From Flavobacterium zepuense (GTDB lineage Bacteria; Bacteroidota; Bacteroidia; Flavobacteriales; Flavobacteriaceae): 64,000 nt of DNA. Below the pieces are notes generated by a model, which made no database searches, was not told where the DNA came from, and worked only from the letters and a program-made list of their open reading frames with translations. Shown piece after piece: positions 19,688 through 25,439 of the stretch (position 1 is the stretch's first letter; each line of letters begins with the position of its first letter). Where the stretch lies: NCBI RefSeq assembly GCF_007097145.1, contig NZ_VJVZ01000014.1, positions 62,001-126,000 on the forward strand, given 5' to 3'. Made by a program: the position numbers and the translations under genes.

Positions 19688-20071
19688 TTAAAGCCAGCTC
19701 AGCAGCAATATTGCCGGGATAAAATAGATAACAATAGTACGGGCACCATCATAATCTTTAGCCATGCGCTGGCCCAGTAACAGGAAAAGCAACGTTATGG
19801 ACGACATTAATGCTGCAATGAAAGCGAACAAAGTACCCTCGTTTACATACAATTGTATGATGCCAATAACGGAAAATGCCCCGGAAAATATTTCTAAAAC
19901 CAGAATCAATAAAAGCGACTGCGGCACGGAGTTTTTAATGGGCGTGTTGGCAAAGTGCCCTTTAAGCCAGGCAATGTTGCCGGCCCAGTCCATTATTTTG
20001 TCGTAGCCCGATTGTATAAACGTAATGGCAAAAAAAGCCAGTGCTATAATTATGGCAGGTTGTAAATTCAT
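19688..20071 (-). CDS. DoxX-like four-helix membrane protein
   Basis: A 127-residue protein with four predicted membrane helices (about 5-25, 48-70, 76-98 and 108-125), the layout of DoxX/DoxD-like proteins. The conserved G-Y-D-K-I near residue 22 also fits. The function of these proteins is poorly known; several are linked to thiol or quinone redox chemistry. It begins 6 bases after the holB stop, so the two are co-transcribed. Confidence 0.65.
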   Translation of the reverse strand: MNLQPAIIIALAFFAITFIQSGYDKIMDWAGNIAWLKGHFANTPIKNSVPQSLLLILVLEIFSGAFSVIGIIQLYVNEGTLFAFIAALMSSITLLFLLLGQRMAKDYDGARTIVIYFIPAILLLSWL

Positions 20072-20077
20072 AAGTAT

Positions 20078-21226
20078 CTATTTTTTATGGATTAAACGTG
20101 TAAGTTTTATAGAAAGGTCGGTTAATATTATCTTGGCATTACCGTTACGCTCTATGTGGTACAGCGCATCGCTAAGCTCTTTAAAAATGTCGTTAATGTT
20201 GCTACCGTTTACAAAAGGGGCAAAATTCTCCAGTTTAAATTTTTCTACTGTAGGCTCCATGTAAACCAATTCCTTAGCATTGTAATTAATGAGCAATGCC
20301 TGCCGAAACATATCGATACAAAAATTAAGGAACTGCTTTTGCGCCTCGCGGCCTATGCCGGCAATTTGCTCGCTCCAGGCAATAAGGTCGTGTATGGCTG
20401 CGGCGTTGCCTTTTGCCCTAAAGGCGGCACGCACCCACATAACAAACCACTCTTCAAAAGGCAGCTCATCGTTAGTTTTGTGCAGCAAATGCAGGGCTTT
20501 GTTGTAGTTGCCCTGTGCCTGGTGTGCCATTTTAAGTGCCGTTTTAGGCTCAACGTTTTTGCGGGTAACAAGCCCATCGGCAATAACCTGCTCCGGCAGG
20601 GCATTAAAATGCAGGATCTGGCAACGGGAAAGTATGGTTTGCAGCAGGTCGTCTTCGCTTTCGGCAATAAGCAAGAAAACCGTTTTTTGCGGCGGCTCCT
20701 CTAAAAGTTTCAGGAGCTTGTTTGCCGTAGCCGTATTCATTTTATCGGCCATCCAAATGATCATCACCTTATAACCGCCTTCATACGCCTTCAGCGAAAG
20801 CGACTTAACGATCTCGGTAGCTTCATCAACACCAATCTGGCCCTGTTTGTTGGCAATGTCAATTTTCTTGTACCAGTCAAACAGGCTGCCGTAAGGGGTT
20901 TCGGCCACAAACTCGCGCCAGTGCTTTAAAAAGTTGGCACTCACGGGGTGGCTTTTAACCTCGCTGTTAGCTGCCACCGGAAACACAAAGTGCAAATCGG
21001 GGTGCGACAGGTTTTGGAATTTAAGGTTACATGCAGCGTTGCCCTCTTTGTTCTCGCCATTGGTATTGGCGCACAAAATATATTGGGCATAAGCTATGGC
21101 CAGCGGCAGGGTACCGCTGCCCTCGGGGCCTATAAATAACTGGGCATGAGGTATACGGCCGCTGTTGGCACTGGTAGCCAAATGGCTCTTTATGTGGTCC
21201 TGGCCTAAAATTTCTGAAAAAAGCAT
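20078..21226 (-). CDS. holB: DNA polymerase III subunit delta'
   Basis: A 382-residue clamp-loader subunit. The N-terminus (I-L-G-Q-D-H-I-K-S-H-L, then G-R-I-P-H-A-Q-L-F-I-G-P-E-G-S-G-T) has the AAA+ delta' form with a non-functional P-loop (G-P-E-G-S-G-T in place of GxxxxGK[T/S]), as expected. The S-H-P-D-L-H-F-V-F-P block and L-L-K-L-L-E-E-P-P followed by S-R-C-Q are diagnostic. Only two cysteines flank the zinc-module position, where the E. coli protein has four. A TATATTTG box ends 5 bases before the start codon. Confidence 0.92.
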   Translation of the reverse strand: MLFSEILGQDHIKSHLATSANSGRIPHAQLFIGPEGSGTLPLAIAYAQYILCANTNGENKEGNAACNLKFQNLSHPDLHFVFPVAANSEVKSHPVSANFLKHWREFVAETPYGSLFDWYKKIDIANKQGQIGVDEATEIVKSLSLKAYEGGYKVMIIWMADKMNTATANKLLKLLEEPPQKTVFLLIAESEDDLLQTILSRCQILHFNALPEQVIADGLVTRKNVEPKTALKMAHQAQGNYNKALHLLHKTNDELPFEEWFVMWVRAAFRAKGNAAAIHDLIAWSEQIAGIGREAQKQFLNFCIDMFRQALLINYNAKELVYMEPTVEKFKLENFAPFVNGSNINDIFKELSDALYHIERNGNAKIILTDLSIKLTRLIHKK

Positions 21227-21230
21227 GGGG

Positions 21231-21238
21231 CAAATATA
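21231..21238 (-). promoter_or_regulatory. Putative -7 box of holB
   Basis: TATATTTG on the minus strand, a full match to TAnnTTTG, ending 4 bases before the ATG. If used, the transcript would start at or next to the start codon. No -33 TTG was found at the right distance. Confidence 0.4.
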
Positions 21239-21300
21239 GGAGATTTTAGGAGATGTGGGGTGTTATGGTTTTTAGAGGCGTTTACTTTAAATACCCGTTA

Positions 21301-21393
21301 CCGTCTTTGCGAGCGAAGTGTAACGGAGCGCGGCAATCAGTATTCACTATAAATCAGTAACAGATTGCTTCGTCGTGCCTTCTAGCAAAGACG
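21301..21393. repeat. Palindromic repeat unit 1 (gene-less copy)
   Basis: The left arm (21301-21338) begins CCGTCTTTGCGAGCG and ends GCGCGGCAATC; a spacer of 24 bases follows; the right arm (21363-21393) begins GATTGCTTCGTCGTGCC and ends GCAAAGACG. Outer CGTCTTTGC/GCAAAGACG and inner GCAATC/GATTGC can pair, giving a long imperfect hairpin. Confidence 0.8.
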
Positions 21394-21439
21394 TGCGTGA
21401 AGAAGATTGCGTATGGAGTTGTACGTACACTACCCGTTA

Positions 21440-21532
21440 CCGTCTTTGCGAGCGGAGTGTAACGGAGCGCGGCAATCAGTATTCACTATAAATCAGTAAC
21501 TGATTGCTTCGTCATTCCTCCTCGCAAAGACG
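21440..21532. repeat. Palindromic repeat unit 2 (gene-less copy)
   Basis: Same structure as unit 1 (arms 21440-21477 and 21502-21532), with the same spacer sequence AGTATTCACTATAAATCAGT and following bases. The right arm ends CTCGCAAAGACG, complementary to CGTCTTTGCGAG in the left arm. Confidence 0.8.
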
Positions 21533-21565
21533 GTACGTGAAGAGTGTAACGTAATGTACCCGCTA

Positions 21566-21985
21566 CCGTCTTTGCGAGCGAAATGCAATGGAGCGCGGCA
21601 ATCTAAACGAATTACAAATATTTTTCCAAGTCATAATAAGTATCATTCCAATGAGGATTGATACTCTCAATTAATTTTACTTTTTTAATTCTCGATCCTC
21701 CTTTTAACTGCTTTTCTCTTGTGATTGCATCTTCGATCATTTGAAAAGATTCGATATATACCAATTTGTTGAGGTTATATCTCGCCGAAAAAGAATCAGG
21801 GTGCAGCTTATCTTTATGCTGTTTTATACGGGCATGTATATCAGATGTTACACCTACATATAATGTGGTATTTGTGTAGTTAGTAAGTATGTATATAAAC
21901 CCTGGTTTCATTAATTTAGATAGATGGTGCAAGATAATAATTACTTTGAAAACAGATTGCTTCGTCGTGCCTTCTCGCAAAGACG
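21566..21985. mobile_element. Palindromic repeat unit 3 carrying a GIY-YIG nuclease gene
   Basis: The left arm (21566-21603) and right arm (21955-21985) are the same arms as in units 1 and 2, but instead of a 24-base spacer they enclose 351 bases holding a complete GIY-YIG nuclease gene (minus strand, stop 8 bases inside the left arm). The whole unit is 420 bases. This looks like the gene-bearing form of an element of which the neighbours are gene-less forms. Calling it mobile is an inference. Confidence 0.6.
21612..21911 (-). CDS. GIY-YIG nuclease family protein
   Basis: A 99-residue single-domain nuclease of the UPF0213/YhbQ-like type. The GIY and YIG strands read F-I-Y-I-L-T-N and L-Y-V-G-V-T; catalytic residues visible are Y7, Y18, R28 (in A-R-I-K-Q-H-K), E66 (in T-R-E-K-Q-L-K) and N in I-N-P-H-W-N-D. 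The start M-K-P-G-F-I-Y at 21911 is the family's usual one; the frame stays open upstream to an ATG at 22022, but that stretch only translates the repeat arm. The gene sits exactly in the loop between two arms of a local palindromic repeat, which suggests that the nuclease and repeat belong together. Confidence 0.9.
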   Translation of the reverse strand: MKPGFIYILTNYTNTTLYVGVTSDIHARIKQHKDKLHPDSFSARYNLNKLVYIESFQMIEDAITREKQLKGGSRIKKVKLIESINPHWNDTYYDLEKYL

Positions 21986-22031
21986 TGCGTGAAGAAGATT
22001 GCGTATGGAGTTGTACGTACACTACCCGTTA

Positions 22032-22130
22032 CCGTCTTTGCGAGCGGAGTGTAACGGAGCGCGGCAATCTTGATTTATTATCATCATAAATCCATAGCAG
22101 ATTGCTTCGTGGTGCCTCCATTCAAAGATG
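22032..22130. repeat. Palindromic repeat unit 4 (decayed copy)
   Basis: The left arm (22032-22069) is intact. The right arm (22100-22130) begins GATTGCTTCGT but its outer end is changed (CATTCAAAGATG in place of CTCGCAAAGACG). The spacer differs from that of units 1 and 2. Confidence 0.7.
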
Positions 22131-22409
22131 TTGCATAGGATGATATATTCCCTAAAACTGCCCAAATCAGCATTATGTAGGAATTTTGCCAAGGCACGAA
22201 TACGTTGTAGTTGTAAGGCAATAAATTTTTTGGTTACATAAAACTACCGTCTTGTGTTGCATTAAAAAATTTAACACAGCAATAAACATTTGTATCACAG
22301 TTATTTATTGCTATTGTGCAAATGTTTGTCAACAATTAGTTGGCAACTTATTAACAAAAAAAACTATATTTGCCTTTCCACATATTTTAAATCAACGCAA
22401 ACACAGTTT
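22131..22409. other. Intergenic region upstream of pgk
   Basis: No gene is seen. The upstream frame of pgk stays open to 22290, but those residues do not resemble phosphoglycerate kinase. The promoter lies near the end of this region. Confidence 0.5.
22340..22372 (+). promoter_or_regulatory. Putative promoter of pgk
   Basis: TTG at 22340-22342, a 22-base spacer, then TATATTTG at 22365-22372, a full match to TAnnTTTG. The start codon follows 37 bases later. Confidence 0.6.
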
Positions 22410-23600
22410 ATGAAAACCCTTTCTGATATTAATTTTAAAGATAAAAAAGCAGTTATACGAGTAGATTTCAACGTTCCTTTAGATGAGAACTTTAAAGTTA
22501 CCGATGCTAACCGAATTGAAGCTGCAAAACCAACCATCGATAAAATTATAGCAGACGGCGGAAGTGTTATCCTTATGAGCCACTTAGGCAGGCCAAAAGG
22601 TGTTGAGGAAAAATATTCACTTAAGCATATTGTTGATAAAGTAAGCGAGGTACTTGGCGTTGAAGTTAAGTTTGTAAACGACTCTATTGGCGAAAAAGCC
22701 GAGAAAGCTGCTGCCGATCTTAAACCGGGCGAAGTACTGCTTTTAGAAAACCTTCGCTTTTACAAGGAAGAAGAAGCCGGCGATGAGGAGTTTGCAGGCA
22801 AGCTTGCTAAACTGGGCGATGTTTATGTTAACGATGCCTTTGGTACCGCGCACCGCGCACACGCTTCTACAACGATAATAGCAAATTTTTTCCCTGATGA
22901 TAAAGTTTTTGGTACGCTGCTTGCTAAAGAGATCGAAAGCCTTGACAAGGTGCTTAAAAACAGTGAGAAACCGGTTACAGCCGTATTGGGCGGTAGCAAA
23001 GTTTCTTCTAAAATTACGGTTATTGAGAACATTCTTGATAAGGTAGACCACCTGATAATTGGCGGAGGGATGACCTTTACCTTTATTAAGGCACAGGGCG
23101 GCAGCATTGGCGACTCTATTTGTGAGGACGACAAGCAGGAACTTGCCCTGGAGATTTTGGCTAAAGCCAAAGAAAAGAACGTACAGGTACATATTCCTGT
23201 AGACGTGATTGCAGCCGATGGCTTTAAGAACGATGCCAACACTAAAGTTGTTGATGTTAGGGAAATTCCTGACGGATGGCAGGGGCTTGATGCCGGGCCT
23301 AAGTCGCTGGAAAACTTTAAGAAAGTTATCCTGGAGTCTAAAACTATTTTATGGAACGGCCCATTAGGGGTATTTGAGATGGAAAACTTTGCCAAAGGCA
23401 CTATTGCCCTTGGTAATTTTATAGCCGAAGCAACTGAGAAAGGCGCATTTTCGCTGGTAGGCGGTGGCGACTCGGTAGCTGCAGTTAAACAATTTGGCCT
23501 TGAAGATAAAATGAGCTATGTATCTACCGGTGGTGGCGCCATGCTCGAAATGCTTGAAGGTAAAACACTGCCCGGCATTGCTGCCATTCAGGGCGAGTAG
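22410..23600 (+). CDS. pgk: Phosphoglycerate kinase
   Basis: Glycolytic enzyme converting 1,3-bisphosphoglycerate and ADP to 3-phosphoglycerate and ATP. The 396-residue product carries R-V-D-F-N-V-P-L-D (about 17), M-S-H-L-G-R-P-K-G (about 57), the hinge and nucleotide-site segments G-G-S-K-V-S-S-K and W-N-G-P-L-G-V-F-E, and the C-terminal G-G-G-D-S-V-A-A. The start at 22410 (M-K-T-L-S-D-I-N-F) is chosen because it matches the family and lies behind the promoter; 40 more upstream codons are open but unrelated. Confidence 0.97.
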
Positions 23601-23693
23601 TGTTAAAGTTTACAATACATTTAAAAAATCAAAGTTATAGTTAACATTGTTGCTTTGCAATACGTTGTAATTTAACTACCTAAAGAGTAAATT

Positions 23694-25439
23694 ATGAATA
23701 AAAAAAGAACACTGTCCTTAGTACTTGCAATGCTTTCGCTTGGGGTTTTTGCCCAGGAAAGTGCGCAGGCAGACATCTCGATCGCACGACCGGAAATTAA
23801 ATTGTCATACTTAGACTCGCTTAAAAACACTTTTGTGCACAACTCACAATGTGCCAAGATTGACAGCCTTTGGCTAAATGAGCTTAATAATGACGACCTG
23901 TTTGTTAACATGCAGGAAGACCTGGCAAGAATCAATCCTGATGAGGAGGTAGATTTTAGCCTTAGTACATCGCTGCTTAAAGAAAGGCTTGCAAAGCTTG
24001 ATGCCAAATCGCCTTTTAACATTGAGTACAGCAAAGGACTTGAAAACATAATAAAAGCATACTTAAAGAACAGGCCTAAAAGCTATGAGCGCTTAATGGC
24101 CATATCAGAATACTATTTTCCAATGTTTGAAGAGCACCTTGCCAAGTACAATGTGCCTTTAGAGATAAAATATCTGGCTGTTATAGAGTCGGCCTTAAAC
24201 CCAAGGGCAAAATCAAGGGTTGGCGCTACAGGCTTATGGCAGTTTATGTACCCTACGGGTAAACAATACAACCTTGAGGTTAACAGCTATGTAGATGAGC
24301 GTAGCGACCCTTTAAAAGCAACTGAAGCTGCTTGTCAGTACCTTAGCAGCCTTTATAACATTTTTGGCGACTGGGACCTTGTTCTTGCATCATACAATGC
24401 GGGCCCGGGTAACGTTACCAAGGCTATTCGCCGCAGCGGATCGTACAAAAACTACTGGAACATCCGTAAAAACCTTCCTAAAGAAACACAGGCTTACAAC
24501 CCTACCTTCTTAGCTACCATGTATATTTACGAATATGCTAATGAGCACGGTATTAAAGCTAAAAAAGCACCGCTTACGTATTTTGAGACTGATACCGTTA
24601 TGGTAAAACGCCAAATGTCGTTTAAGCAAATCGCACAATTGTTAGATGTGCCGGTTAACCAGCTACAGTTCTTAAACCCTATTTACAAGCTTGATGTTAT
24701 ACCGTATACTAAAGAGAAAGCCCACTATTTAAGGCTTCCGAAAGATAAGATAGGTATGTTTGCCAGCAATGAGGCAGGTATTTATGCTTACATTGACTAT
24801 GAAGACAGCAGGAGGGAGAAACCGCACTTTAACGCTACTCCTGAAAGGACTAAAGACAGCAGCGCTATTGCATCCAACTACAGTTCAAAATCTAAAGCAT
24901 CGTCGTATACCAAGAAAAGCTCTGTTACTACCAAAACGTACGTGATTAAGCGTGGTGACAACCTTGGCGAGATTGCCGATAAGAATAATGTTACGGTTGC
25001 CGAGCTTAGAAAGTGGAACAAGATTAAGGGTAACAACATTATGGCAGGCCAAAAGCTGAAGATTCAGAAAACGGTTATCACTAAGATTCCGGTTGCTAAC
25101 GATGAAGAGGTAGAAGCCATTGCATTTAAAGAAACTAAGCCGGCAAAAGAAAAGACAACTGTGGCTCCTGCTACAGAAGCCGCTAACGATGTTGCCGATG
25201 CTACGGTTTGTGATGAACCGGTTGATACCAAAAATACTGCTATTGCTGCGGCCTCTAAACGTGCCCGTGAGGCAAGCTACCAGGAAGCCAGCATGTATAT
25301 TGTACAAAAAGGCGACTCACTGTTTAGCATTGCCCGTAAACACCCGGGTGTAACGGTAGAGAACCTTAAAAAGTGGAACGAAATTAACGGCGAAAGCATT
25401 AAGCCGGGAATGAAACTGAAAGTGGGCGACGTTAACTAA
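23694..25439 (+). CDS. mltD: Membrane-bound lytic murein transglycosylase D with LysM domains
   Basis: A 581-residue secreted peptidoglycan lyase that cleaves glycan strands to 1,6-anhydro products. The signal peptide ends at A-Q (about 21). The SLT goose-lysozyme-like domain (about 150-270) shows the catalytic E165 in A-V-I-E-S-A-L-N-P, then G-A-T-G-L-W-Q-F and A-S-Y-N-A-G-P-G-N-V. Two LysM domains (about 414-460 and 535-580) each start Y-V/I-x-K/Q-x-G-D-x-L. Unlike E. coli MltD there is no lipobox. It is the first gene of a three-gene unit; the DUF4837 gene follows immediately. Confidence 0.92.
   Translation: MNKKRTLSLVLAMLSLGVFAQESAQADISIARPEIKLSYLDSLKNTFVHNSQCAKIDSLWLNELNNDDLFVNMQEDLARINPDEEVDFSLSTSLLKERLAKLDAKSPFNIEYSKGLENIIKAYLKNRPKSYERLMAISEYYFPMFEEHLAKYNVPLEIKYLAVIESALNPRAKSRVGATGLWQFMYPTGKQYNLEVNSYVDERSDPLKATEAACQYLSSLYNIFGDWDLVLASYNAGPGNVTKAIRRSGSYKNYWNIRKNLPKETQAYNPTFLATMYIYEYANEHGIKAKKAPLTYFETDTVMVKRQMSFKQIAQLLDVPVNQLQFLNPIYKLDVIPYTKEKAHYLRLPKDKIGMFASNEAGIYAYIDYEDSRREKPHFNATPERTKDSSAIASNYSSKSKASSYTKKSSVTTKTYVIKRGDNLGEIADKNNVTVAELRKWNKIKGNNIMAGQKLKIQKTVITKIPVANDEEVEAIAFKETKPAKEKTTVAPATEAANDVADATVCDEPVDTKNTAIAAASKRAREASYQEASMYIVQKGDSLFSIARKHPGVTVENLKKWNEINGESIKPGMKLKVGDVN

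Follow-up and report, generated by a model that had tools for sequence, protein, structure and literature searches.

Results

A GIY-YIG nuclease gene lies within an array of CGTC-tagged repeats

Between a gene of the DNA polymerase III delta-prime type and the phosphoglycerate kinase gene (pgk), the genome of Flavobacterium zepuense (henceforth G000) carries an array of inverted repeats, one pair of which encloses a gene for a single-domain GIY-YIG nuclease (P0001). Our analysis of this array, in a window that comprises the whole 64,000-nucleotide stretch of DNA under study (Table 1), revealed that one subfamily of such nucleases is flanked by repetitive extragenic palindromic (REP) sequences of the CGTC type. 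Left (L) and right (R) arms follow each other in the order L-24-R, L-24-R, L-gene-R and L-R. A preliminary description of the array had recognised four units with common arms, separated by 24, 24 and 351 bp in the first three; we measured the same distances and found each arm four times, with R4 in degenerate form. The 351-bp interval does hold one complete GIY-YIG gene, and its stop codon lies 8 bp from one arm as described, while the distance from its start codon to the other arm had to be corrected from 44 to 43 bp.

A 33-nt left-arm pattern with at most three mismatches occurs four times in the window, against a mean of 0.00 over 100 shuffles, and CGTC precedes the stem in 4/4 left arms. 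When folded, the arms pair over 4-5 bp, with three additional inner pairs in the left arms, long loops and no CCA tail. The segment from R1 to L2 is present twice with a single mismatch, and this 115-bp duplication is tandem growth of the array. Neither a group I intron nor any other known RNA emerged from the Rfam matches up to E 1 across positions 20000-23700, which include no intron family.

Table 1. Features of the repeat array and its surroundings; positions are those of the window unless stated otherwise.
Feature	Position	Strand	Remarks
Window	G000:C6:62001-126000		F. zepuense genome G000, 4.76 Mb in 41 contigs
Left arm L1	21303..21338	+	CGTC-tagged REP-like repeat, tag outward
Right arm R1	21363..21392	-	tag outward; 24-bp loop to L1
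Left arm L2	21442..21477	+	
Right arm R2	21502..21531	-	24-bp loop to L2
Left arm L3	21568..21603	+	8 bp from stop codon of nuclease gene
GIY-YIG nuclease gene (P0001)	21612..21911	-	99 aa, catalytic residues conserved
Right arm R3	21955..21984	-	43 bp upstream of nuclease start codon
Left arm L4	22034..22069	+	
Right arm R4, degenerate	about 22100..22130 (ends approximate)	-	
R1-spacer-L2 segment, 115 bp	21363..21477	+	second copy at 21955-22069, 1 mismatch
Flanking gene, DNA polymerase III delta-prime type (PF13177)	20078..21226	-	
Flanking gene, phosphoglycerate kinase, pgk (PF00162)	22410..23600	+	

The nuclease is a conserved single-domain GIY-YIG protein

P0001 scores 51.7 bits against the Pfam GIY-YIG profile (PF01541), for which the curated cut-off is 22.6. 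Residues Y18, G20, R28, H32, E66 and N85 are invariant across 47 aligned rows and Y7 is nearly so, in agreement with the earlier view that the catalytic residues are retained; we take the catalytic roles of all seven to be those of their counterparts in I-TevI and UvrC. An AlphaFold2 model of the protein is confident (pLDDT, the predicted local distance difference test, 92.9; predicted template modelling score, pTM, 0.85). UPF0213 proteins are the nearest solved structures by sequence (1zg2, 1ywl) and head the Foldseek list (1zg2, E 1.1e-4). The VIA-align list is led by SLX1 (Z 7.6, root-mean-square deviation 2.8, 93 residues), followed by HIGLE, UPF0213, UvrC and I-TevI, with Z scores below 8 that may reflect a common arrangement only. 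Judged by the model, this fold similarity would suit, rather than demonstrate, action on branched or hairpin DNA. Homing-endonuclease profiles match P0001 weakly.

Repeats and nuclease paralogues are dispersed through the F. zepuense genome

The left arm has 22 copies in G000 at three mismatches or fewer, and a wider repeat pattern, which by its construction demands GTC in every copy, has 63; the reversed-pattern control gave 0 for each. Inverted dimers predominate, with 38 of the 63 copies in tag-outward pairs spaced up to 500 bp. We listed the loop contents of the 20 adjacent tag-outward pairs spaced up to 1.5 kb, a check that the preliminary description had proposed: 18 have short spacers of 17-98 bp, one has the 351-bp loop with the GIY-YIG gene, and the last (652 bp) consists, on our own reading, of two partly degenerate doublets that differ from each other and stand on either side of an unrelated small open reading frame (ORF). 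Arms scattered at random distances around many unrelated genes, which would have marked the link as coincidental, were thus not what this genome held. The tag and the start of the stem read GTCAT in many genome copies and GTCTT, with the first pair mismatched, in the window.

An intact paralogue of P0001 with 71% identity lies at C6:47193-47489; its arms carry the stem TCAC/GTGA instead of TTGC/GCAA, and its right arm is imperfect. At C22:70499-70576 a truncated relative, matched over residues 1-25, abuts a right arm. That both copies likewise stand at such repeats supports the earlier proposal of an autonomous element with non-autonomous derivatives.

G000 has four matches to Y1 transposases (PF01797), the REP-associated tyrosine transposase (RAYT) type, all on contigs other than the window's. 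Around each of these genes (L061-L064) stands a different family of palindromic repeats.

Elsewhere in the genome (G000:C5:117400-119200, L296), REP doublets alternate with small unrelated ORFs in a cassette-like manner.

CGTC-type repeats flank related nucleases in distant bacteria

Homologues of P0001 occur in 52 of 100 relatives (E 1e-8 or better). The flanks were examined in three sets of homologous loci and one of controls. An order-level set comprised 65 of the 76 matches that reached at least 58 bits, a line of our own choosing. Controls were 26 of 31 weaker matches (5 left out), which are other GIY-YIG genes of the same genomes with unassigned families; two of them, L183 and L184, had no tblastn match to P0001 on re-check and were retained. 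A multi-phylum set comprised the best 80 of 587 confirmed relatives from an alignment-based scan of genome contigs. By NCBI lineage these 80 include Pseudomonadota (38), Bacteroidota (11), Omnitrophota (3) and Chloroflexota (2), with single loci from Armatimonadota, Nitrospirota, Calditrichota, Myxococcota, Thermodesulfobacteriota, Bipolaricaulota and several candidate phyla. From a plasmid collection, 10 of 31 records were taken first and 4 were added later. An inverted-repeat score with a swapped-flank null was dropped as too blunt, because the loci share repeat families, and was replaced by a hairpin search (GTC or CTC tag, hairpin stem and C), distance profiles and the control genes.

A REP lies no more than 200 bp from the gene, on one side or both, in 61 of the 65 relatives, 66 of the 80 multi-phylum loci and all 10 plasmid loci, against 2 of the 26 control genes. 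Related genes elsewhere thus carry the arms as well. Repeats on both sides were found at 42/65, 46/75 (full flanks only) and 8/10 loci, respectively, and tag-outward pairs at 31/65, 36/75 and 5/10, versus 0/26 controls on either count. Dinucleotide-shuffled flanks contained a repeat in 0-5 of 80 loci over ten runs. Around the multi-phylum genes, repeat density declines from 6.4 per kb (<100 bp) to 0.2 per kb (>500 bp), and of the 147 repeats up to 200 bp away, 108 point their tag outward. By contrast, 0 of 30 Y1 loci from G000 and related genomes have a CGTC-type repeat within 300 bp (33 loci, less 3 dropped at contig ends). The flanking is specific to one subfamily of single-domain GIY-YIG nucleases, mostly outward in orientation, and reaches far beyond Flavobacteria. 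Because the REP-nuclease pairing is found again in distant groups of bacteria, we see in the enzyme a good candidate for the machinery that spreads the REPs.

The 14 multi-phylum loci in which the search pattern found no repeat within 200 bp were not added to these counts. Most of them carry, as judged on reading, variant palindromes, such as CTCGTGTCCCGG in Bradyrhizobium and ATCCC facing GGGAC elsewhere; L100, L111 and L113 are doubtful. Among the later plasmid loci, the search pattern finds outward pairs at L303 and L304, and L301 has an outward CGTC palindrome by eye, with GC replacing AT.

Spacing of outward pairs in the examined loci is bimodal (102 of 172 below 100 bp, 60 at 300-500 bp), and 64 of the 66 spaced 250-600 bp contain the GIY-YIG signature; only the G000 pair list is unbiased, as presence of the gene was what selected the other loci. 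In a quick tree built from 126 proteins, with every third multi-phylum locus, few columns and many open forks, the label 'REP-flanked' requires 10 changes versus 27 when shuffled (0/500 as low).

In a Hoeflea metagenome-assembled genome (L233, G102:C11:17138-18447), three GIY-YIG units stand in tandem at intervals of about 540 bp, separated by REPs that are nearly identical.

Stem sequence tracks the nuclease within the order, and repeat number follows its gene

A stem could be read at 137 of the 155 loci; one row of the test below (L035) has wrong coordinates. Within the order, the nearest protein from another genome predicted the 5-nt stem at 38 of 61 loci, against 8.9 (standard deviation, sd, 3.3) after permutation, and over all loci at 72 of 137 against 22.5 (sd 5.0). 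When stems were shuffled among paralogues of the same genome only, the observed 23/39, versus 12.5, was reached 0/5000 times. Within the order, the stem changes with the protein, and it does so even among paralogues that share a genome.

We counted REPs in the 100 genomes with a pattern for the order's repeats. The median is 32 in the 43 genomes with a homologue of at least 58 bits versus 1 in the 57 without (p 2.5e-13), and 32 versus 5 within genus (p 7e-7); reversed-pattern controls averaged 2.4 with the gene and 1.3 without. These counts are support, not proof, because the pattern was drawn from gene-flanking repeats, the genomes are related, and gene-bearing genomes may be larger. Few palindromes in the order are tagged at both ends: the 100 genomes contain 8, confined to 4 of them (control 0).

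Filled, gene-less and decayed sites in relatives

The empty-site comparison called for by the preliminary description covered 29 relatives with a pgk locus, 12 of which have no delta-prime gene in the stretch examined. None of the 17 that keep the pair has such repeats in the gap, which measures 108-455 bp in 15 of them and 772 and 1018 bp in two, compared with 1183 bp in F. zepuense. By this comparison of gaps, the insertion appears to be lineage-specific.

Presence and absence were seen at other sites as well. Azospirillum lipoferum has the gene and two REP doublets between sufB and sufC (gap 617 bp); the gap is 55-129 bp, with neither gene nor doublets, in A. ramasamyi, A. oryzae, A. sp. 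B510 and A. thermophilum. At a Sphingobium site, removing 354 bp from the filled allele (L214), with the count starting just after the GTC tag, yields the solo palindrome of TomTYG64 at 27/27 nt; divergence is seen in the outer flanks, and the site holds a decayed palindrome in TomTYG74 and another sequence in TomTYG72. Sinorhizobium provides two reciprocal cases, in which the gene-less site holds an imperfect solo palindrome, accompanied in K101 by a further degenerate repeat. In S. meliloti Ak57 a doublet encloses only about the last 25 codons of the gene, and from its sequence this doublet reads as an internal-deletion derivative of a gene-bearing unit. Indels at two Rhizobium loci (L208, L220) were too messy to read.

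The sufB-sufC gap of Shinella PSBB067 (L303) also contains a REP-flanked GIY-YIG gene, with a stem unlike that of Azospirillum (L206). The different stems suggest independent insertion.

Discussion

The preliminary description knew of no established account of such a system, and this holds in part. The repeat class itself has been described: the searched text of Di Nocera, De Gregorio and Rocco (2013, PMC3733652) defines CGTC-tagged REPs, equates neisserial dRS3 with CGTC-1 elements and names 'G. forsetii' among the positive species. According to that text, these REPs 'apparently lack a dedicated transposase' and show no RAYT association in the species surveyed; the word 'endonuclease' is used there once, about insertion sequences. 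A connection between GIY-YIG nucleases and REPs did not appear in the titles and abstract openings we searched, with preprints outside the scope, subscription journals thinly covered and result lists viewed in part, and 'GIY' is absent from the searched text of PMC12306157 (2025) and PMC6006769 (2018).

As far as that description extends, CGTC REPs, including neisserial dRS3 and the Rickettsia elements RPE-4 and RPE-6, resemble the window repeats in their tag (CGTC, TGTC or CCTC) on one unpaired end, inverted dimers and a patchy distribution across phyla; their palindrome often opens with AT, and repeats of the dRS3 form surround a GIY-YIG homologue in N. gonorrhoeae. The window copies differ from the four published families in their shorter stems, longer loops and TT for AT, and they lack the family's stem of 8-9 bp, loop of 4-5 bp and CCA tail; near-strict forms stand at loci of relatives such as L108, L206 and L205. 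The window repeats are divergent kin of CGTC REPs, outside the four published families.

The gonococcal homologue (L205) is nested in dRS3-like repeats at a place where the incomplete gene table has no feature.

RAYT/REP and REPIN systems, built on GTAG REPs and a Y1 HUH transposase, share with the present units the inverted REPs around the enzyme gene, an enzyme-specific repeat and gene-less doublets as non-autonomous forms; here, however, the enzyme belongs to GIY-YIG (PF01541) rather than HUH (PF01797) and the tag is CGTC rather than GTAG. Free-standing GIY-YIG homing endonucleases (I-TevI, Seg type) are small mobile genes with the same catalytic domain, whereas the present protein has 99 aa and no long DNA-binding domain, and its gene has no group I intron match and is accompanied by its own dispersed palindromes. 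The SLX1 nuclease functions in repair, and UPF0213 proteins are encoded by ordinary chromosomal genes; they are the nearest solved relatives by fold and, for UPF0213, by sequence, yet the control GIY-YIG genes are mostly not REP-flanked. Penelope-like elements, eukaryotic retroelements with a GIY-YIG nuclease and a reverse transcriptase, also have such a nuclease serving a mobile element, but nothing else is encoded here.

Taken together, we consider it probable that the repeats and the gene form a RAYT/REP-like system whose own enzyme is the GIY-YIG nuclease, with gene-less doublets as non-autonomous members. The autonomous unit would be an inverted pair of CGTC-tagged REPs, tags outward, around a single-domain GIY-YIG gene; the nuclease would recognise the repeat that flanks its gene, the non-autonomous forms would be the doublets without a gene (17-98 bp between arms in G000), and arrays would be built by tandem copies. 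Most likely, the nuclease would bind the tagged palindrome as a hairpin or cruciform and cut at the border of GTC tag and stem, whereupon the break would be repaired or joined and the unit copied to, or lost from, another site. The nuclease may thereby drive the spread of its repeats, and 'candidate mobiliser', the term of the preliminary description, suits it well, since mobilisation itself is something we infer.

Several observations weigh against such a system. No transposition event was seen, and no target-site duplication was found at the Sphingobium, Sinorhizobium and Azospirillum sites, where flanks are too diverged or a palindrome is present; we also know of no GIY-YIG enzyme that joins strands. 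Single arms of the window fold weakly (z -0.28 to +0.43 for four arms, -1.21 for one doublet), and strong hairpins in these arms were dropped as unsupported. The correspondence between stem and protein is weak in the multi-phylum set (27/66 versus 18.8 permuted, sd 4.3), and inward pairs spaced 250-600 bp enclose the GIY-YIG signature too (14/18). One multi-phylum locus (L140) has no REP nearby on reading of its flanks, and in one plasmid locus (L302) the nearest repeat is 185 bp away. Gene and repeats are also uncoupled in some genomes: G009, G022, G029, G038, G044 and G064 hold 13-33 REPs without a close homologue (6/57), and G039, G048 and G080 carry the gene and only 1-4 REPs (3/43).

The main rival holds that the palindromes pre-exist and spread by other means, and that a free-standing GIY-YIG homing endonuclease cuts solos or doublets and is copied in by repair, so that the REP is its target and not its product. 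We regard this as unlikely. In its favour, GIY-YIG is a homing fold with weak matches to homing-endonuclease profiles, REPs also occur in genomes without the gene, and where one strain has a filled unit, relatives can have a palindrome tagged at both ends (Sphingobium TomTYG64, with a decayed one in TomTYG74; imperfect forms in Sinorhizobium K101 and S. meliloti Ak57). Such solo palindromes could equally be deletion scars between stem repeats, however, and homing would be expected to split the target, whereas each side of the Sphingobium unit keeps a full palindrome. REP abundance, moreover, follows gene presence, and the gene remnant in the S. meliloti doublet means that doublets can derive from gene-bearing units.

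Another explanation casts the nuclease as a domesticated enzyme that trims REP cruciforms, an upkeep akin to that of SLX1 or SbcCD, and is kept beside REPs that host recombination spreads. The SLX1 nucleases at the head of the VIA-align list fit this role, but at Z scores that may mean only a common arrangement, and the patchy distribution among relatives, the decayed and tandem copies and the varied sites look selfish; we think it improbable. It is very improbable that REPs and small mobile genes merely gather in the same permissive intergenic sites, for which the sufB-sufC gap, occupied in Azospirillum and Shinella with different stems, could be cited, given the near-absence of repeats at Y1 loci and other GIY-YIG genes, the outward orientation and the stem-protein correspondence. 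That a RAYT drives the GTCATTGCGAG repeats with the GIY-YIG gene as a passenger is hardly credible despite the four Y1 matches in G000, and we reject RAYTs as drivers of the window repeats: each match has a different REP family, Y1 loci lack nearby CGTC-type repeats, and the searched text of PMC3733652 reports the same for its species.

Returning to a REP system run by its own GIY-YIG nuclease, the chances seem to us evenly balanced for a wider proposal: that a single-domain nuclease of about 100 residues is the sole protein of bacteria-wide palindromic mobile elements and supplies the enzyme that the CGTC REP superfamily, Neisseria dRS3 included, has been missing, cutting its own palindrome at the tag to copy or remove units. 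If true, this would be a mobility chemistry unlike that of HUH, DDE or tyrosine/serine recombinases, and REP-type element families would have arisen with two unrelated nucleases. CGTC REPs are known from several phyla, pathogens included, and the literature, lacking an enzyme for them, has not settled their origin; a specific, testable enzyme candidate and a putative recognition code that sets stem sequences against protein clades make this a question for the bench.

On a Planktothrix plasmid (L212), a GIY-YIG gene with GTCATTCTGAG repeats lies between an MmeI-type restriction enzyme and the DISARM gene drmA.
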